Assembly: GCA_002839605.1 (NCBI GenBank)
Contig: PGYK01000003.1
Location: 1-64,000 of the forward strand
DNA: 64,000 bases
Direction: 5' to 3'
DNA from: Methanomicrobiales archaeon HGW-Methanomicrobiales-3
Lineage (GTDB): Archaea; Halobacteriota; Methanomicrobia; Methanomicrobiales; Methanospirillaceae
The notes beneath the pieces were generated by a model. It was not told the DNA's origin, ran no database searches, and saw nothing but the letters and a program-made list of their open reading frames with translations. The first letter of the stretch is position 1, and every line of letters begins with the position of its first letter. Shown here one piece after another: positions 11,833-59,577 of the stretch. The position numbers were made by a program, and so were the translations under genes.

Positions 11833-12535
11833 ACTCTGTAGAAACAGGCATGAACCGATTAGGTCCACACCAGAACGATGAAAATATGCAGAAAAATAAC
11901 GTCCTCGCCCGCATCCTTGCACTCCTTATGGGGGCGACAAGGCCCCCAACGTCGCGCAATGGTCGGGCTGCGGATGCGATTGTGCCCAATATGGCGTGCA
12001 TGCAGGACACTCGGACAGAGGACCCCAGCGAATATTTTCATGGGAAACGGACATGAACCGCTCAGGTTCACACCCGAAGCATGAAAAACGCTGCATGCGG
12101 GATATCTTTTTAGCACTTCCCGATTCAGGACACCTCACAGGGAACGTTTGGAAGAAATATCCGGTCCGGAAAACCGGTAATAGAAGCCGCCGCGGGAGCG
12201 CCCCCGCGGGGGCGGCGGCAGGAATCGCAACCGGGGTATGGGGGTCTCAACCCCCATAATCTATTCTTCTGGAAATTGTGTTTTTATGGGAAATCCGCAG
12301 TCCGGATAATTGTTACCCCCCTTCTCGCCATCCCTGCCCCCAAGGGGGCTTATGGCGCATGCGATGCCTCCGCATTACCCGTACAGGACACTCGACAAAA
12401 ATTGCTTTCACAAAAACAGAAATTGAGGCCGCCGCGGGAGCGCCCCCGCGGGGGCGGCGGCAGTAATCCCCAAGGGGGTATGGGGGTCTCAACCCCCATA
12501 ATTTATTCTTCTGAAAATTGTGTTTTTCATATTTA
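11833..12535. repeat. intergenic cluster of dispersed repeats (B, E, B, A, A)
   Basis: No gene is supported between the ligase and 12664. Present are a B element (11833-11885), an E element in reverse (about 11900-11992, with AATGGTCGGGCTGCGGATG), a second B element (12046-12090), and two A elements (12183-12297 and 12424-12535), each with a CCGCCGCGGGAGCG hairpin, the ATGGGGGTCTCAACCCCCAT hairpin and a TTCTTCTG...TGTGTTTTT tail. A further partial E word (GCGCAAGGATACGGGCGAGG) is at 12558-12577 and a B element in reverse at 12600-12655. Confidence 0.7.
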
Positions 12536-20754: not shown

Positions 20755-21215
20755 CCGGCCATTGCGCGACGATGGTGGCAATACGACCACTCTCAAGCGT
20801 CCGCGCAATGGTCGGGCTGCGGGTGCGATAGTGCCCCTTATGATCTCCTTTCGGGATTTCATACGGGTATTTCCCCGGACTTTTTTTTAAAAAAAAACCG
20901 AATTGATACCGCCGCGGGAGCGCCCCCGCGGGGGCGGCGGGGTTCATCATTTCCGGGGGTATGGGGGTCTCAACCCCCATCATCTGTTCCAGAAGAAGCC
21001 ATTTTTTTAGGGGAAAACCTGCCAGAAATCGTAGATTGATCTGCGATGGAGCCACGGGCGCTCGGGGTCTCATCGACCCTCGCCCCGTGGAACAGGCCAT
21101 ATATGGGCGCCTGCATCTGAATGCTAGAACCGGGGGTTTTTAGGGCTTGTCCCCTTGGTGTGCCTTCCCCTAATGGGGAGAGGGGGGCACCCTCGCAATT
21201 CCACAAAAAGACCCT
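20755..21215. repeat. intergenic cluster of dispersed repeats (E, A, C, D)
   Basis: The 0.7-kb gap between the two paralogous zinc-ribbon genes has no gene. It holds an E element in reverse (20755-20845, with CGCAATGGTCGGGCTGCGGG), an A element (20908-21015), a C element (21033-21095, GCGCTCGGGGTCTCATCG) and a D element in reverse (about 21130-21215). Confidence 0.65.
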
Positions 21216-22969: not shown

Positions 22970-23560
22970 CTCTGGTAAAAAGAGCCTGAACCGACAGGGT
23001 TCACACCCAAACGATGAAAAACACTCCCTTTTTCCTAGGTGGGTGCTCCGGTTCAGGGACTCGATACGGCACGGGGGGATAAATTACCGGATATGATATG
23101 AACCCGAATTGAGGCCGCCGCGGGAGCGCCCCCGCGGGGGCGGCGGCAGGAATCGCAACCGGGGGCATGGGGGCATCAGCCCCCATAATCTGTTCTTCTG
23201 GAAATTGTGTTTTTCATGGGAAATCATTCCCACGGTGTCATTTTGTGGAATTGTGAGGGTGCCCCTCCCCTCTCCCCATTAGGTGGAGGCAGCCTGCGGG
23301 GGCAAGCCCCCAAAACCCCCGGTTCCATCATTTTGGTTTCAAGTGCCCATTTACCTCCTGCTCCACAAAGGCAAGGGTCGATGAGAGCCCGAGCGCCCGT
23401 GGCCCCATCGCAGATCAATCTATAATTTCTGGCAGGTTTTCACCAGAGCAGAGAAATAAAAACCGGTAATTGAAGCCGCCGCACAGGCGCCCTCCGGGGC
23501 GGCGGTAACCCCCTATCATGGGGGTATGAGGGCAGTCAGCCCCCTGCATCGCTTCAGAGG
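22970..23560. repeat. intergenic cluster of dispersed repeats (B, A, D, C, A)
   Basis: Between convergent genes lie a B element (22970-23025) just behind the stop of the zinc-ribbon gene, an A element (23112-23223), a D element (23243-23330), a C element in reverse (23360-23425) and an A element (23472-23560). No coding potential is supported. Confidence 0.7.
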
Positions 23561-43537: not shown

Positions 43538-44036
43538 CGGTTCATGTCCTGTTTCAATGAGCATGGGCCGGCAGGGTTCTCACCCGTGTGATGAAAACCG
43601 GATGATTCGCGGTAGAAACGGGCATGAATTGGTAAGGTTCATGCCAGTTTCTTCAGAACACTTTTTTTAGGGAAACATCCATGAACGCCTGTTCCTCCAC
43701 ATTTCCCATGAAAAACGAGTGTTCTTAACAACAAATGATGGGGGTTGAGACCCCCATGCCCCCAAGGGGATAACTGCCGCCGCCCCGAAGGGCGCCCCGC
43801 GGCGGCCTCAATTCGGTTTATTCCATGGAAATCGCCCAACTGGGTTCCTCAAAATGAGAATCCTGTATGGAAACCATAAAGGGCACAATCGCATCCGCAG
43901 CCCGACCATTGTGCGACGCTCTAGGGCCTCCCCGCCCCCATAAGGAGCGCAAGGATACGGGCGAGGACGGTTATTTCCCTGGTATTTTCAGACTCCGGGT
44001 GTGAACCTCCGTTCCTCCACGTTTCACCAGAGACAG
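43538..44036. repeat. intergenic cluster of dispersed repeats (B, B, A, E, B)
   Basis: The 0.75-kb gap after the second PiT gene has no gene. It contains a B element (43538-43600), a partial B element (43610-43650), an A element in reverse (43675-43820, with ATGATGGGGGTTGAGACCC), an E element (43878-43965, with CCCGACCATTGTGCG and AAGGAGCGCAAGGATACGGG) and a reversed B element (43985-44036). Confidence 0.7.
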
Positions 44037-45785: not shown

Positions 45786-46196
45786 TCAGATCATACCAAT
45801 GAGATCCCGTGTTGTGCAGACATGGAGGAGATCCTGTTTTCGGAAGTGCCGGTCCTCGGTCCAGATATGATCGATGCCGAGCGCAATCCCGACTGCCAGG
45901 AACGGGGCATCGTTTTCATCAACCGGTTTCATGATCTCTATTGCGTGCTGGTACTCCGATTCAAAGTCTTCGAACGGAACAAGAACGACCTGGTCGAGCA
46001 GGGTGTGCATGAGCAGATCGAAGTCGTGTTCCGTGATCTTTGCCTTTTTCATGAGATACGGCCGGTGTTTGAAGAGTTCGATCCCGATATAATCGGGCGC
46101 AAAAAAAAGAAAAGAGCGGTGCAGGATAATTTTTCGCGACGTGGAATCTTTTAAGAGACCTGCCATAATCCGGTTTGTATCAATGACAAGTCTCAT
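45786..46196 (-). CDS. vapC: PIN-domain toxin (VapC-like)
   Basis: A 136-residue PIN-domain protein. The acidic active-site residues are Asp6 (MRLVIDTNRIMAGLL), Glu in IGIELFKH, Asp in VDENDAPFLAVGIALG and Asp in WTEDRHF. The family are Mg-dependent endoribonucleases held inactive by the adjacent antitoxin. It starts 16 bp behind the RHH-type antitoxin gene. The long form with SRKIILHRSF after Asp6 matches the archaeal PIN family of arrangement "PIN_3". Confidence 0.88.
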   Translation of the reverse strand: MRLVIDTNRIMAGLLKDSTSRKIILHRSFLFFAPDYIGIELFKHRPYLMKKAKITEHDFDLLMHTLLDQVVLVPFEDFESEYQHAIEIMKPVDENDAPFLAVGIALGIDHIWTEDRHFRKQDLLHVCTTRDLIGMI

Positions 46197-46212
46197 GGTT
46201 TCCAGCCTCTGT

Positions 46213-46458
46213 TCACCTGCGGGTTTTTTTCAATGCTTTCTGCTTGTAATGCTCCTGGACTCCTTCCTTTACCTTGTAGTCGAGTGCCATGATATCCTCT
46301 TCCGCAACCGTACTGTGCTGCGTCATGGTATCGAGCATTGCAAGTTTTTTTGCGTAATCCTCGATCGCCCGCCGCGCAATCTCGCTCCACCGCACTTCGC
46401 TGTGCGCCTTGACAATCCGGTGAACATCCTCCGGGAGGGACAGGGTCATGTTCGGCAT
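46213..46458 (-). CDS. vapB: ribbon-helix-helix antitoxin (VapB-like)
   Basis: An 81-residue protein with a ribbon-helix-helix start (MPNMTLSLPEDVHRIVKAHSEVRWSEIARRAIEDYAKK): beta strand, then two helices, as in Arc/CopG-type antitoxins. A C-terminal tail rich in Lys/Glu would wrap the PIN toxin. It precedes vapC in the same operon. It would bind its own promoter, located between 46459 and about 46500, where TGTGAACTC and GTTCACA-type words (46488 region) give a candidate site. Confidence 0.85.
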   Translation of the reverse strand: MPNMTLSLPEDVHRIVKAHSEVRWSEIARRAIEDYAKKLAMLDTMTQHSTVAEEDIMALDYKVKEGVQEHYKQKALKKTRR

Positions 46459-46919: not shown

Positions 46920-47945
46920 TCACGCTTCTCCCGAAGAGACACTCCCGGAAAGGGTATCTCCCACTATCCGATCCGGGCTCGCAGCGGGCTCCGTTTACCC
47001 CCTTTTCCCTCCGCCCGGATCAATTTCATGCAAATTAGGGGGTATTCCGTACATGGGTTTTGCATCCGGGGCGACTCCTTCGTTTCCCGGCGATTCTGAC
47101 GGTTTTAAAAGGCCGTGTAAAACGAAAATAGAGCTGAAATACTCATCGAAAGTCAGGGTCGCATGGGGTACAGGAGGACCGGATGAACCGGGAGGGGGTG
47201 GATGCTTCTCCGGCAGATCCGGCATTTCATTCCTTTTTCCCCCTCATAAAGAATCTCCCAAAAAAGAGTCTCTCCCAGGGTCGGATCCGGGCCCGTACAG
47301 GGCTCCGTTTGACCACTTTTGCCTCCGCCCGGATCATTTCCGTGCAAATTAGGGGGTATTCCGTACAGGGGTTTTGTATCCGGGGCGGTTCCTTCGTTTC
47401 CCGGCGATTCCGGTTGATTTGCGAGGCCGTGTAAAACGAAAATAGAGCTGAAATACTCATCGAAAGTCAGGGTGGGGCGGGCAATCGGAGGTAGGCCGGG
47501 AACCAGGTGGCCGGAGGGGCGTTGTGGGGGTTTTCCGGATCCGGGGGTCACGACGGGGAATGAACACCGGGGAAGGGGGTCTTTGAGATGAGGGGGGTGC
47601 TGGAATATTTTTTCCGGATTCATCCTCCCAAAAAAGGGTCTCTCCCAGGGTCGGATCTGGGCCCGTACAGGGCTCCGTTTGACCTCTTTTGCCACCGCCC
47701 GGATCATTTCCATGCAAAAGGGGGGGTATTCCGTACATGGGTTTTGGATCCGGGGCATATCCTTCGTTTCCCGGCGATTCCGGCCTGTTTGCAGTGCCGT
47801 GTAAAACGAAAATAGAGCTATAATACGTGGCAAAAGTCAGGGTGGGGCGGGCAATCGGAGGTATGCCGGGAACCAGGCGGCCGGAGGGGCGTTGTGGGGG
47901 TTTTCCGGATCCGGGGGCTACGACGGGGAGTGAACACCAGGATCG
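46920..47945. repeat. tandem array of three complex repeat units
   Basis: Three partly degenerate units of about 320-370 bp occur in a row. Each has a segment with CCCGTACAGGGCTCCGTTTG (46938-47033, 47258-47349, 47636-47716), then one starting GGGGGTATTCCGTACATGGG and ending CGTGTAAAACGAAAATAGAG (47038-47160, 47351-47473, 47725-47845). Units 2 and 3 also share GGCCGGAGGGGCGTTGTGG (47474-47556, 47845-47925). All long ORFs here are Pro/Arg-rich shadows of the repeat. No gene is supported in this 1-kb stretch. Confidence 0.75.
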
Positions 47946-47947
47946 CT

Positions 47948-48110
47948 GCCGGGAGTTCTTCACCGCAAATCATCGACAAACGCGTGGCAGCCCGGGCACC
48001 ACCAGCCGACCGGCACCGGGTGCATCTTCCCGGACGGTCCGCGGGTCCGGACATACGCCCGGTACAGGTGCTGGCGCCGGTTCGGGCCGGTTGGTGTGCG
48101 GCAGCCGTTC
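47948..48110. repeat. direct repeat flanking the caspase-like gene, left copy
   Basis: Positions 47948-48110 agree closely with 50012-50160: GAGTTCTTCACCGCAAATCA against CAGTTCTTCACCGCAGCTCA, then AAACGCGTGGCAGCCCGGGC and CGGTCCGCGGGTCCGGAC in both. They are in the same orientation and bracket the 48216-49952 gene. Confidence 0.75.
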
Positions 48111-48154
48111 GGGCAGGAGGGAGGATGGGGGGATTGATGTGGGGGCGGGCGCAC
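47960..48154 (-). CDS. small CxxC protein
   Basis: A 64-residue, proline- and arginine-rich protein with two cysteine pairs: CPNGC near residue 14 and CPGCHAFVDDLR at the end. The C-terminal half (HLYRAYVRTRGPSGKMHPVPVG, then WWCPGCHAF) reappears in the second repeat copy at 50020-50200, so the coding potential is conserved, which favours a real gene. It is divergent from the caspase-like gene 61 bp away. It may bind zinc. Function unknown. Confidence 0.5.
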   Translation of the reverse strand: MRPPPHQSPHPPSCPNGCRTPTGPNRRQHLYRAYVRTRGPSGKMHPVPVGWWCPGCHAFVDDLR

Positions 48155-48215: not shown

Positions 48216-49952
48216 TTGAATGGATTGCCATCAACCAATATCGTGTACCTCTTCTCCGTCATGCACAAACTGGTGGGGGGCCAGGAGATCATCGGGGAAC
48301 TCCGGGACTTTTTCCTTGCAAAAGGGTACGAACCGGGCCGGATCGTGTCAAACGCCGATGCAACAATCGAAGACCTCAAAGCAATCCCGCATAACTGCTC
48401 GGTCTTCTTCTTCAACTCGCACTCCTCGTACCGTTTTGGGACTGACCGTACGGTCCCCCTCTTTGCCTGCCTCATGACCGCAACACCGGTGAACGAAGAG
48501 ACAGAAGAGCGGTATGCCGGCGATATCCGGGCCGGCCTTGTCACGACCTTTTCGGACGACACGGAGGGTTTCGGGGAGCGGTACTGGATTACGGAGAAGT
48601 TCATCCGGAAGTACTGGCGGTTTCCGGACAACAGCCTTGTCTTCCTCCACGCCTGCATGTCGTTTAACGAACCCCTGAACACCATCCTGCTCTCTCCCGT
48701 GACCTCCGATGAAGAGACCACGGGCTGCGGGGCCGGCGTATTCTGCGGCTGGAGCTGGGGCGCCACCGGGGACCTTGCGCCACGGTACCTTTTCGACCGC
48801 CTGCTGGGCGCAAACCTTATCCGGGAGGAGACGCGGCGGGAAGATCCACCCCAGCGGCCCTTTGACATCGATGCCGTATGGGAGGACATGGCCGTGCCCG
48901 GCCGCAACCTGATCGACGACTATGATGCGCACACGAAGCATGCAACGAAACTGGAGTACGGCCGGCGGCCCGGTTGCACGCTCGGCCTGCTTGCCCCAAG
49001 CATTGAGCATGCGACATTTGATGAGCAGGAGAAGATCGTAACGCTGACCGGCGCCTTTGGCACCGGAACACCGAAGGTCCGGGTCTTTGTCAAAGAGACG
49101 CCGGGCGGTTTCATCTCTGAGGGAGACACGGAGCTCATTGCCGGACCCGGTGACAGCCCGCAGGAGCTCACCTGTATGGGGATGCCGGAGAGGGGGCGGG
49201 GTTCAGCAGGGTACCTGGTCGCCGCGGCCGATTACGGCAGCGGATCCCTTGTCATGAGCAATGCCGTGCCCGTGACTTCCTGGCGCGGGACGTTCACGTT
49301 CACCCTGCGCCTGCCGGACCAGGATGCAGACAGTCCCGGGATCGGGCAGGTCACGACCCCCGTCTTCCTTCGCGGCGACATTCACCGGCCCCGGAAAAAG
49401 CCGGGAGTGGCGCCCTATCCACGCCCCTGTACTTTCTGCACGGTCCTTGACCCGGAGACGACCGGGCAGTATACGAGCGGCGGGGACTATACGTCCCAGA
49501 AGAACGGCTATTCCTGTCACTGGCACGGGTCCGGCTCCATGCCGCATGACGGCGAACAGGTCATCGGGGTCTGGGGATGGCACCGGTTCCCGATGGGGCC
49601 GTTGCAGCCGAAACTCTTTGTTGACATCCTGACCCGCGAGAACCAGGTCCTGGTTGACATCAGGGACGAGAAGGGGAAACTTATCGGGGAGAACCTGGTC
49701 TTCCCGGTCAATGTCCTGTACCTGGCCAATGAAGTGAACAGGCTGCCGTTCATCTTCGACTTCCTCAACGGCTCCCTGACCTGGGCCGAGGCGGACGGGA
49801 AGTACGAACGGTCGTATGATATCCCGGGCAACTGCATCGAGGCGCCGGTGTACTGCGGTGATTTTCCGGATGCGGAGAAAATTGTCATCGGCCGACTCCG
49901 GTGGGAGACGCTGAAGGCCGAATTCATCCCGGATAAAGATACAGAGTCCTGA
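48216..49952 (+). CDS. predicted caspase-fold (clan CD-like) protein with C-terminal beta domains
   Basis: A 578-residue protein. The TTG at 48216 is chosen as start because GGGTGAGC stands 6 bases before it and because the first strand (NIVYLFSV) is then included; an ATG follows at 48261. Residues 1 to about 250 fit a caspase/C25/CHAT-like fold: SVFFFNSHSSYRFG supplies a His box (His69) and NSLVFLHACMSFNE a Cys box (Cys147), with a glycine-rich GVFCGWSWGATGD after it. The C-terminal part (about 300-570) is beta-rich, with GAFGTGTPKVRVFV resembling a TIG/Ig-like strand and a possible Cys pair in CTFCTVLDPETTG. No signal peptide. The fold call rests on motif spacing only. It is a likely cysteine peptidase, or an inactive relative, of unknown target. 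Confidence 0.65.
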   Translation: MNGLPSTNIVYLFSVMHKLVGGQEIIGELRDFFLAKGYEPGRIVSNADATIEDLKAIPHNCSVFFFNSHSSYRFGTDRTVPLFACLMTATPVNEETEERYAGDIRAGLVTTFSDDTEGFGERYWITEKFIRKYWRFPDNSLVFLHACMSFNEPLNTILLSPVTSDEETTGCGAGVFCGWSWGATGDLAPRYLFDRLLGANLIREETRREDPPQRPFDIDAVWEDMAVPGRNLIDDYDAHTKHATKLEYGRRPGCTLGLLAPSIEHATFDEQEKIVTLTGAFGTGTPKVRVFVKETPGGFISEGDTELIAGPGDSPQELTCMGMPERGRGSAGYLVAAADYGSGSLVMSNAVPVTSWRGTFTFTLRLPDQDADSPGIGQVTTPVFLRGDIHRPRKKPGVAPYPRPCTFCTVLDPETTGQYTSGGDYTSQKNGYSCHWHGSGSMPHDGEQVIGVWGWHRFPMGPLQPKLFVDILTRENQVLVDIRDEKGKLIGENLVFPVNVLYLANEVNRLPFIFDFLNGSLTWAEADGKYERSYDIPGNCIEAPVYCGDFPDAEKIVIGRLRWETLKAEFIPDKDTES

Positions 49953-50011
49953 GGGCCGGACACCGGCGGCAATGAGGACGTGATCTGCCAGGGCCCCGTC
50001 ATCCCGGGCCG

Positions 50012-50160
50012 GCAGTTCTTCACCGCAGCTCATCAACAAACGCGTGGCAGCCCGGGCACGACCGGCCGACCGGCACCGGGTGCATCCTGCCGGCCGGTCC
50101 GCGGGTCCGGACGTACGCCCGGTACAGGTGCTGGGGCCGGTTCGTGCCGGTTGGTGTGCG
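50012..50160. repeat. direct repeat flanking the caspase-like gene, right copy
   Basis: This is the partner of the copy at 47948-48110, in the same orientation. See that entry for the shared words. Confidence 0.75.
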
Positions 50161-50200
50161 GTGGCCGTTGGAGCTGGGGGACTTGTGGGCATTCGATGAG
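50020..50200 (-). pseudogene. degenerate second copy of the small CxxC gene
   Basis: In one minus-strand frame the reading HLYRAYVRTRGPAGRMHPVPV, then SCPGCHAFVDELR and stop at 50020-50022, matches the protein encoded at 47960. Upstream the cysteines of the first pair are gone (SSNGH instead of CPNGC) and no in-frame start is found; the ATG lies in another frame. It appears to be a decayed copy created by the flanking duplication. Confidence 0.45.
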
Positions 50201-50239
50201 AGGTGTGGCCGGGTGGGGGCGCATCTGATATGTGGGTGT

Positions 50240-50281
50240 GACGCTCAACGGGGCTCCGCCCCTCGCCGCGTGGGCTTCCCC
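50240..50281. repeat. 42-bp inverted element, left end of the GIY-YIG/AbrB/TIM module
   Basis: It contains GACGCTCA, then CGGGGCTCCGCCCC, then GCCGCGTGGGCT. It equals the reverse complement of 52381-52422 at 38 of 42 positions. The core GGGGCTCCGCCCC can form a hairpin, so it may also end transcription of the GIY-YIG operon, whose stop is 20 bp away. Confidence 0.75.
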
Positions 50282-50300
50282 ATGAGTAAAAAAAGATATC

Positions 50301-51182
50301 CTATTTTCGGTTCCTGAATTGGTATTCCGGTGCTTTCCGGTACTTTTCAAAATAATTCCCAATGAGATCATTTTCCAGTTCTTTGAGCTGATGCGGCAAT
50401 ACAGGAGTTTCCAGAATGTGGTATGAGAAAAATAGGTCTCGGTCATCCCACGACTTTTGGCTATGATCAGATAATCGCTTGGAACAATTTTCCGATTCAC
50501 CAACATAGACAATTTCGTGAGAAATTGAATCCATGAGAATATACAGACCCTGTTTTTGTTGAATTGAACGGGTATATTTCTTCTCAAGACGTTCGATGGT
50601 ATTCCATTGAAGTCCCATCCAGTCGGCACTTCCGGGTTTTCCCACATCAGGTAAGGGAGGATGGCATAATCCTCCAGCCGGGTTATCTTTGTTGCTTGTA
50701 TCTAATTTTCCACCTCGAATTCCCGGATCGCCATTCCTTTTTTTCCGATCTGTTGATTTCCGGTATCTTTTATGAAAGCGTCCGAAGTTACAAAGGGTGG
50801 ATTCCCCACGCTCCTGTCGGTACCGGTACAGGAGAAAACACTCCATCCCCCGCCTGCCACTCATAGATGTATCGAGTGGGGAAGCGGAACACTCGTACTC
50901 AAATCCTTCTGCATCCTTCCAAGCCCAGAGTGATGGAGCCGCTGTGTGAGGAGCATTCCACGGCATCAGATCAGTTTTTTTGATATTGTGCCGGAGTTCG
51001 TTCAATCTTTTGTGTACAGTCCTCTGGGTTTCACCGATATACATGAGAAAATCTTTGCCGATGGGTCTTATCCGGTAGAGACCTGGCTTGTGGGGGATTT
51101 GCCTGAAGTCATGTTTATCTGCAGAGAACGGAACCCAAGGGGACCATGGAAGAGAGGCCCAATTTGTTTCAAAATATTCCAT
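50301..51182 (-). CDS. protein with two GIY-YIG domains
   Basis: A 293-residue protein with two complete-looking GIY-YIG units. The first has GLYRIRP (Gly34-Tyr36), MYIGET (Tyr48-Gly50), the arginine of RTVHKRLNELR and a late glutamate helix (GMECFLLYRYRQERG, then LCNFGR). The second (about 215-290) has GLYILMD, VYVGESENCSKRLSDH and LENDLIGNY. A charged linker (about 150-205) joins them. GIY-YIG proteins are Mg-dependent endonucleases in repair, restriction and mobile elements. It follows the AbrB-type gene after 24 bp and is AT-richer than its surroundings, which suggests transfer. Confidence 0.85.
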   Translation of the reverse strand: MEYFETNWASLPWSPWVPFSADKHDFRQIPHKPGLYRIRPIGKDFLMYIGETQRTVHKRLNELRHNIKKTDLMPWNAPHTAAPSLWAWKDAEGFEYECSASPLDTSMSGRRGMECFLLYRYRQERGESTLCNFGRFHKRYRKSTDRKKRNGDPGIRGGKLDTSNKDNPAGGLCHPPLPDVGKPGSADWMGLQWNTIERLEKKYTRSIQQKQGLYILMDSISHEIVYVGESENCSKRLSDHSQKSWDDRDLFFSYHILETPVLPHQLKELENDLIGNYFEKYRKAPEYQFRNRK

Positions 51183-51206
51183 CTTTCAACCCCGGAACAG
51201 ATGGAA

Positions 51207-51398
51207 TTATCCGGACTTTGCGGAATAGACCCGCTCGTACTGGAGGATAACAGTGTCCTTTTCAGTTTTGGCAATAAGCTTGAAAACGTCGCCGGGATTT
51301 ATTTTGAAGGATTTTACAACTTCCGAGGGGATAGTGAGATCCAGAGAGTTGCTTCCATGATGAAGGCGGGACTTCACGGTATTTTCGATTTCTGCCAT
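51207..51398 (-). CDS. AbrB/SpoVT-type DNA-binding protein
   Basis: A 63-residue swapped-hairpin protein: KSRLHHGSNSLDLTIPSEVVKSFKINPGDVF and then KLIAKTEKDTVILQYERV, the usual strand-helix-strand of AbrB/MazE-like regulators. The start at 51398 is favoured over one at 51422, since the latter would run through the operator. It precedes the GIY-YIG gene in the same operon, so it is likely its autoregulator. The palindromes upstream are the expected binding sites. Confidence 0.82.
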   Translation of the reverse strand: MAEIENTVKSRLHHGSNSLDLTIPSEVVKSFKINPGDVFKLIAKTEKDTVILQYERVYSAKSG

Positions 51399-51412
51399 AC
51401 ATCCCGGATGGC

Positions 51413-51450
51413 AAATGCACATTTAGCGCTTAATGCACATTATGTGCATT
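51413..51450. promoter_or_regulatory. operator with three AATGCACAT half-sites
   Basis: AATGCACATTATGTGCATT at 51432-51450 is a perfect 9-bp inverted repeat around one base, and a further AATGCACAT lies at 51414-51422 in direct orientation 18 bp away. The site is 16-52 bp before the AbrB start and 43-80 bp before the divergent TIM-barrel gene, so one regulator could control both. Confidence 0.7.
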
Positions 51451-51492
51451 AAAGTTCAGAAACCAGTTTGATCCTATTCTTTCCTTGTTATA

Positions 51493-52371
51493 TTGACCAT
51501 CTCGTACGTTTTTCCCAATACTTCAGAAATTCCCCAGCGTGGCGGGCTCGATGAACGATGGAAGCTCGCCGAGTCGGTGGGATGCTCGTTTGTTGAAGTC
51601 CCGGCAGACCTGATCAAGAAAGGATCGGAAGTAACTGCAACGGGACAGGGGCTCTGCACATTTCTGACAAAGGAGAGTATCGCAACACTCTATAAAACAA
51701 TAAAAAATCCATCCGGAAAAATTCCCTACATTCTCCATACAGAGCCCTCTCTTTCAAGAACGGATAATTTTGGGATAAAGTCCCAGGCTCCGCTCCGGTG
51801 GAATGATCCGGTATGGGTTGAAAAATTTGTCCGGATGATTCTCGATCTTTCGGATTTTCTTGGTAACACTCCGGCAAAGATTGAGATTCATCCCGGCGAC
51901 CGGAGGAATTCTTTTGCAGATATTGTCCGGAGCGTGAAAACAATCCAGACAGGTTTTGTGGATACATTTGGAATCTTACCTGAAATCCTTCTTGAAAACC
52001 GAACCGGGCAATTCATATCCGAGGGTACAGCAATTTTCAAGTTCTGGGAATATGTGATGCGGCACAATCCGGAAATCGAGGATTCATTTGGTATTGTGCT
52101 GGATATCCAGCAGCTCTCGACTGTAACCCGGCAGAATTTTCTGCCATCGTTTCACCAGATTCCTCCTGCATGCCTGAAAGGGTTTCATATCCACCGGCTG
52201 CACCGGCCACCGAAAATTGACGATGGGATTCCATGGCCGGAAGTGTTTGCGTTAATCTCCGGAATTGAGCATGATGTGATCATAAATCCAGAGATTCATC
52301 ACAACAATCAGGTTGCAAGAGTGATCGGTTTTTGTAAAGAGATGCTCACAGAGGAAGAGCATAAAATGTAA
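51493..52371 (+). CDS. xylose isomerase-like TIM-barrel protein (AP-endonuclease 2 superfamily)
   Basis: A 292-residue protein from the TTG at 51493; no in-frame ATG is near the start. It begins MTISYVFPNTSEIPQRGG and AESVGCSFVEVPADLI. Metal ligands of the superfamily appear as KIEIHPGDRR, EILLENRTG, GIVLDIQQL, GFHIHRLHRPP and IINPEIHHNN, matching His, Glu, Asp, His and Glu at the strand ends. The superfamily includes sugar isomerases and endonuclease IV. Since it sits divergent to a GIY-YIG nuclease and shares its operator, a nucleic-acid role is possible but not shown. It ends just before the second inverted element. Confidence 0.8.
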   Translation: MTISYVFPNTSEIPQRGGLDERWKLAESVGCSFVEVPADLIKKGSEVTATGQGLCTFLTKESIATLYKTIKNPSGKIPYILHTEPSLSRTDNFGIKSQAPLRWNDPVWVEKFVRMILDLSDFLGNTPAKIEIHPGDRRNSFADIVRSVKTIQTGFVDTFGILPEILLENRTGQFISEGTAIFKFWEYVMRHNPEIEDSFGIVLDIQQLSTVTRQNFLPSFHQIPPACLKGFHIHRLHRPPKIDDGIPWPEVFALISGIEHDVIINPEIHHNNQVARVIGFCKEMLTEEEHKM

Positions 52372-52380
52372 TAGATTCCG

Positions 52381-52422
52381 GGGCTAGCCCACGCGGCAAG
52401 GGGCGGAGCCCCGATGAGCGTC
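52381..52422. repeat. 42-bp inverted element, right end of the GIY-YIG/AbrB/TIM module
   Basis: Reverse complement of 50240-50281 with four mismatches, 10 bp after the stop of the TIM-barrel gene. AGGGGCGGAGCCCC in its middle can form a hairpin, so it may act as a terminator as well as mark the module edge. Confidence 0.75.
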
Positions 52423-52641
52423 AAATCCCCCGTAGTCATTTCCCCCCCGGCGGAACATTTTCTGTTCCTTTAATCCGGCCGCATCAAAGACAAACCACGC
52501 CAATCCGGCCCGGATACACATCCCGTTTTTCCTAAAAACCGTTTCATAATAAAAGCCCATTGACCTGCCTGATCCATGGTTGTATGTCAAACGGGCCCCG
52601 CTGACCCGGCACGGGAACTCCAACTCCCGCACCGGCCCTTT

Positions 52642-59329: not shown

Positions 59330-59577
59330 TTTCCCATGAAAAATGCGGAAAAGAATATTGATGGGGGCTGATGCCCCCATACCCCCGTGGGGATTACTGC
59401 CGCCGCTCCCGTTTGGGCGCCCCGCGGCGGCTTCTATTACCGGTTTTCCGAATCAGAGATTGCCCCGCTGTACTCCGCGAAGGGGCCAGAATCGGGGGTG
59501 CTTAAAAGAAATCCCCCGTTTAGCGTTTTTCATGCTTCGGGTGTGAACTCCCGTTCATGTGCGTTTCACCAGAGCAT
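59330..59577. repeat. dispersed repeats A and B in reverse orientation
   Basis: The 300 bp between convergent genes contain an A element (59330-59450, beginning GATTTCCCATGAAAAATGCG and with ATGGGGGCTGATGCCCCCAT) and a B element (59520-59577, GCTTCGGGTGTGAACTCCCG) ending just behind the stop of the hydrolase gene. Confidence 0.7.

Follow-up and report, generated by a model that had tools for sequence, protein, structure and literature searches.

At positions 50240 to 52422 of the 64,000-nucleotide stretch of DNA that we analysed (the window), two genes face a third across one control region, and an inverted copy of the same 42-bp element follows each outer 3' end. The preliminary description likened this arrangement to a compact defence or repair unit that could move as one piece. 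Do the three genes form such a unit, and what are the elements that border them?

Gene content and shared control region

The features of the block are collected in the table. Open reading frames were called mechanically in the window and in the relatives, many of which are draft genomes on short contigs.

Table. Features of the block, in window coordinates
Feature	Position	Strand	Evidence and remarks
42-50 bp two-hairpin element, subtype A	50237-50285	+	outer border of the GIY-YIG side; covariance model 70.6 bits
293-aa protein with two GIY-YIG domains	50301-51182	-	PF01541 7e-9; 23-sequence alignment; predicted model pLDDT 91.5
63-aa AbrB/MazE-type protein, predicted autorepressor	51207-51398	-	PF04014 6e-4; doc_partner 2e-4
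Predicted operator: 17-bp palindrome (51433-51449) and a further half site	51416-51449	.	shared divergent promoter region
292-aa TIM-barrel protein, TTG start	51493-52371	+	fold of ketose 3-epimerases / AP endonuclease 2; predicted model pLDDT 91
42-50 bp two-hairpin element, subtype B	52377-52425	-	behind the TIM-barrel gene; covariance model 71.4 bits

The interior of the block has a GC content of 45.2%; no other 2.1-kb stretch of the window is as low (window median 56.8%), and the GC3 of its genes is 0.44-0.53 compared with 0.77 in the two genes adjoining the block. These values agree with the preliminary description of the block as AT-richer than its surroundings. Alignment of 50240-50281 and 52381-52422 likewise reproduced the inverted element at both ends (38 of 42 positions identical), and profiles and predicted folds the double GIY-YIG protein, the AbrB-type protein and the divergent TIM barrel.

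The GIY-YIG protein matched the Pfam profile at 36.2 bits (cut-off 22.6), and the best solved matches to its predicted model were GIY-YIG domains, among them that of UvrC and, at lower similarity, that of Hpy188I. By inspection of the alignment, domain 1 retains GLY, YIG, R59, E114 and N132, E114 being absent from some paralogues. The family occurred in 30 of the 60 genomes searched, almost all of them of this genus, often with several members per genome and often broken. The defence model PDC-S14 gave a weak match (1e-8) covering one domain.

The TIM-barrel protein matched no family in Pfam or NCBIfam and none of the known defence models. Foldseek connected its predicted model to ketose 3-epimerases (E 1e-9), with AP endonucleases also among the closest solved folds; identity to the ketose 3-epimerases and AP endonuclease 2 is about 12-16% and the TM-score about 0.6. 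The protein has E168, D204, H232/H234 and E267, which are candidates for the metal-binding Glu-Asp-His-Glu set of this superfamily, and E267 is absent in two relatives. The distribution of the family is patchy: 6 of 60 genomes had a member, and relatives occur in Desulfobacterota, ANME-1, Heimdall- and Bathyarchaeota, Thermococci and many Methanoculleus. In the Methanoculleus homologues (L012, L013) KPV replaces the NPE motif, and the genes lie in a stable, non-defence neighbourhood of thioredoxin-like and membrane-protein genes, which suggests a different role. The neighbours of the Desulfobacterota homologues (L157, L177) include, by eye, lookalikes of EVE-type proteins, DNA methylases and type I restriction subunits.

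The AbrB protein scored below cut-off with PF04014 (20.1 bits, cut-off 24.7) and TIGR01439 (12.9 bits, cut-off 28.3), and its match to the NCBIfam model doc_partner was also below the curated cut-off; MazE/AbrB-type profiles alone scored, and a WYL domain gave no match. We set its start at ATG 51398 as the most likely one because homologues align from there, and in an alignment of seven sequences identity to the window copy was 68-92%. The gene was present in 11 full copies in 10 of the 39 genomes of the genus, with one partial match besides; no other of the 108 genomes searched from the family had it, and another family of the order has a more divergent relative (46% over 46 aa). The GIY-YIG gene lies 24 bp downstream, adjacent and in one operon, while the starts of the divergent AbrB and TIM-barrel genes are separated by a perfect 17-bp palindrome, ATGCACATTATGTGCAT. 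The control region proposed earlier for the divergent genes thus contains a palindrome, whose role as an operator is predicted. A 33-bp pattern of this putative operator had a single match at 0 mismatches in each of six genomes of the genus, always beside the AbrB gene. The conserved palindrome is suggestive of repression by the AbrB protein of its own promoter and, as judged from these sequence searches, gene and palindrome are specific to the genus; we present them as new.

Other features lie nearby in the window. A 173-nt direct repeat, 90% identical between its copies (47948-48120 and 50008-50180), surrounds the gene of a 578-aa protein (48216-49952) just left of the block, and a 300-nt direct repeat occurs three times in tandem-like order at 46941-47924 (71-90% identical). 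A PIN_2 domain protein (1e-22) and a small partner encoded upstream of it, on that same strand (45786-46458), are a probable VapBC-type pair. Several further families of GC-rich repeats, 40-116 nt long, are spread through the window in both orientations, for example at 12170-12285, 20895-20989, 23098-23213, 43701-43806 and 59361-59423.

Defence genes beside the predicted regulator

In other genomes of the genus, the AbrB gene was accompanied by different genes. Its neighbours were DndB (1e-157), DndA and further Dnd/Pbe-like genes in G011, a Schlafen-type helicase (PDC-S41, 5e-129) in G034, a UvrD helicase (1e-52) in G012, a type III methylase (8e-166) in G031, and Vsr (6e-30), Dcm (7e-86) and a GHKL ATPase in G062. 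G061 has two copies, one beside a kinase/HD protein and the other beside an HD protein and a GHKL ATPase; the loci of G030 and G025 had no recognisable neighbour. The defence genes of G012 and G031 are oriented convergently with the AbrB gene and lie outside its operon. As the same predicted switch, AbrB gene and operator, is found in sister genomes next to different defence genes, its neighbours appear interchangeable.

As PADLOC includes general families, we compared these loci with random genes. Strong PADLOC matches (E<=1e-50) were found beside AbrB at five of the nine other loci compared with 0 of 20 random genes (p about 0.001 by simple hypergeometric arithmetic, in which neighbouring blocks within one genome are not independent). 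The neighbours of the element gave a weaker signal at the same threshold, 6 of 30 as opposed to none of the 20 random genes (p about 0.04), and a pair among these six matches is mutually homologous. Both lines of evidence lend indirect support to the earlier proposal of a defence unit; against it, the defence models miss the TIM-barrel protein and match the GIY-YIG protein weakly. The block is probably an accessory gene set of defence type, in a genus whose named relatives place it among the Methanomicrobiales.

The element and its homology borders

In the window's genome (2.59 Mb), the two window copies were the only ones at <=3 mismatches; their arms, extended to 48 nt, are 88% complementary. 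Genome-wide counts were derived from searches, in which 20 of 149 genomes, the window's own included, carried the element. A covariance model trained on 25 copies recovered it in 34 of the 39 genomes of the genus and added one weaker copy in the window's genome (G000:C12:43716). The copies fall into two subtypes, both present in other genomes: the left window copy is of subtype A, CAACGGGG...GGGCTTCCCC, and the right one of subtype B, CATCGGGG...GGGCTAGCCCC. Because the window copies differ in subtype, they are no simple duplicated pair, and this difference, together with the presence of the element in 34 of 39 genomes, argues against one transposon-like piece. We found no target-site duplication at the window elements. 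A convergent transposon pair was accordingly rejected on its mixed orientations, two subtypes and lack of duplication; the block has the inverted ends of an IS-type transposon, but neither a target duplication nor a transposase inside it. The element is a repeat dispersed across the genus, and the idea that its two window copies move the block as one piece is not supported.

The element is low-copy in each genome, clustered and composed of two hairpins. Its hairpin GGGGC-loop-GCCCC has a constant stem and a varying loop (TCC, TGGC, AGGC, TTC); since the stem barely varies and the loops alone do, covariation cannot provide proof of the structure. A search of Rfam gave no match at E<=1. Among the 65 strong copies, 24 had another within 10 kb, compared with 1.2 expected. 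Many elements start 4-8 bp past a same-strand stop codon, ahead of the next gene, and others point towards a gene on the other strand, at most a few tens of base pairs from its stop codon, as those behind the TIM-barrel and GIY-YIG genes do; in five AbrB loci, the element lies directly 3' of the AbrB stop codon. AT-rich DNA was not consistently on the inner side of the element (17 of 35 copies, p 0.47), and that pattern was rejected. Subtype A elements at L093, L095, L100 and L131 lie within longer repeats of several hundred nucleotides followed by the same small gene, which at L131 adjoins a gene that by eye is like ArdC-type antirestriction genes.

DNA homology between loci often begins or ends at the element, and we observed this in several independent comparisons. 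The 3' part of the window's GIY-YIG gene and its element match G015 from 50239 inward, that is, from the outer edge of the element, and the outer flank is unmatched. For a block with a Schlafen-type helicase, G019 and G034 align from the element's first base onward, the other side being different. G005, G012 and G035 share a 1.57-kb HNH+HIT block at 81-86% identity; an element immediately precedes this block in G035, another immediately follows it in G012, and in G112, too, the block starts behind an element. In both G005 and G032, homology of a block with a DUF3427 helicase stops at an element, and among the five AbrB loci with an element after the AbrB stop codon, mutual homology stops at the far edge of the element. 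These comparisons support the view that the element is a general, clustered junction of the genus and a real border of blocks, a property that we likewise present as new. The earlier statement that it bounds this block is consistent with the homology border in G015; as a pair belonging to this module, the elements are better understood as two instances of that general junction.

Readings of the block and known systems

The complete trio was found in one other genome, G004, with the same spacing and a conserved shared operator, and with a GIY-YIG gene broken after about 100 residues. Elsewhere the families are mostly apart: the GIY-YIG gene was present without AbrB in most genomes of the genus, and among the 33 TIM-barrel loci of a genome scan, an AbrB or GIY-YIG partner was noticed in none of the listed neighbourhoods except that of G004. 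The three families thus do occur side by side outside the window, but the separate distributions of the GIY-YIG and TIM-barrel genes do not agree with one piece moved by the 42-bp element.

Our preferred reading, to which we assign a probability of roughly 0.6, is that the block is a defence-type gene pair controlled by an AbrB autorepressor and that the genus shuffles its defence genes at element junctions. The AbrB/MazE-type protein would bind the palindrome between the divergent promoters and hold down both its own transcript (AbrB and GIY-YIG) and the TIM-barrel gene. Infection or stress would release the repression, so that both partners are expressed: the GIY-YIG protein may cut DNA, and the TIM barrel may be a metal enzyme whose substrate is either DNA (its ends or abasic sites) or a sugar or nucleotide, giving the pair a putative antiviral role. 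The 42-50 bp repeat would be a dispersed intergenic junction joining gene blocks, and units would be exchanged most simply by homologous recombination between element copies, across short homology. If this is right, operator and element together would point to defence genes, among them uncharacterised ones like the GIY-YIG/TIM-barrel pair; the archaeal AbrB-type switch would join the few known regulators of defence islands, and the element would offer a sequence-defined place for studying how such islands are assembled.

An unlikely alternative is that three independent accessory genes happen to be neighbours in a plastic, repeat-rich region, the element being an ordinary REP-like or transcript-end repeat that moves no genes. 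The rarity of the trio and its broken GIY-YIG copy are in line with this, as are the other repeats of the region and the position of the element just behind stop codons, like many REPs; moreover, the TIM-barrel protein of the window's genome is nearer to a solo homologue in G029 (67% identity) than to that of G004 (55%). The identical spacing and conserved operator in both trio genomes, the defence enrichment beside AbrB and the coincidence of homology borders with elements argue against mere chance.

Two readings assign the element a more specific part. We consider it quite unlikely that the locus is an archaeal, integrase-less counterpart of integrons, in which an AbrB-autoregulated promoter unit would end in the 42-50 bp two-hairpin site and interchangeable defence units with that site at their borders would be exchanged behind it, so that defence islands grow under one switch. 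It is very unlikely that the element is a dedicated site for a recombinase that inserts defence cassettes behind the AbrB-controlled promoter. The homology breaks at element edges, the placement 4-8 bp past same-strand stops and right after the AbrB stop, and the clustered runs, mostly of one orientation (11 of 15 close pairs), would suit such a cassette system. However, the orientation bias is not significant (p 0.12), orientations are mixed across all copies and the window's elements face inward. Furthermore, an integron integrase (TIGR02249) was above cut-off in none of the 39 genomes, the best being a partial match of 171 bits in G023, and the Y1 (RAYT-type) transposase PF01797 was found in only 5 of the 39 and not in the window's genome, whereas the element is in 34. 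We also considered an integron attC site: an RYYYAAC-like GCTCAAC is seen but is broken in subtype B, and this candidate was rejected, again with no integrase above cut-off. Finally, a toxin-antitoxin pair of a MazE-like antitoxin and a GIY-YIG toxin, with an unrelated TIM barrel, would fit the MazE-like fold, the antidote model doc_partner and the adjacency of the two genes in one operon, but is highly improbable, since GIY-YIG often occurs without AbrB and AbrB with many other partners, and the two are therefore no obligate pair.

Known systems offer partial parallels to the locus. The GIY-YIG protein shares fold and motifs with nucleases such as the UvrC N-domain and Hpy188I, and differs from them in having two domains per chain and long family-specific stretches; its nuclease role is predicted. 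The TIM barrel has the fold and the conserved His/Glu/Asp positions of D-tagatose/ketose 3-epimerases and AP endonuclease 2 (EndoIV), from which its low identity and its lack of a Pfam or NCBIfam match set it apart. In the cassette arrays of integrons, archaeal ones among them, exchangeable units are delimited by a short site that recurs directly behind the genes (PMC9668308). The window element is also a short repeat behind genes that bounds exchangeable units, but it is short and non-attC, occurs in both orientations without an integrase above cut-off, and borders units that are partly multigene. REP and GTAG- and CGTC-tagged palindromic repeats are short intergenic hairpin repeats near stop codons (PMC3733652), as is the element, which unlike them is low-copy, clustered and two-hairpin, with Y1 transposases mostly absent. 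The junction pattern thus resembles both integrons and REPs, minus their hallmark enzymes.

The closest parallels to the regulator are the WYL-domain defence regulators BrxR and CapW, which are small, lie beside varied defence systems and have an inverted-repeat operator upstream of their own gene (PMC9122601, PMC9122588). The AbrB protein is likewise a small predicted regulator with varied defence neighbours and an upstream palindrome, whereas it is AbrB/MazE-like, 63 aa long, archaeal, confined to one genus and devoid of a WYL domain. RptR, a repressor of restriction-modification islands tied to bacterial type I systems, binds TAGCTA (PMC12255303); compared by context rather than fold, it shares with the window's system a small repressor-type gene, a palindromic site and nearby restriction genes, while the latter has a 17-bp palindrome and varied partners and is found in archaea. 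By analogy, the AbrB protein, a predicted repressor, would work like BrxR, CapW and RptR, yet from outside the WYL BrxR family.
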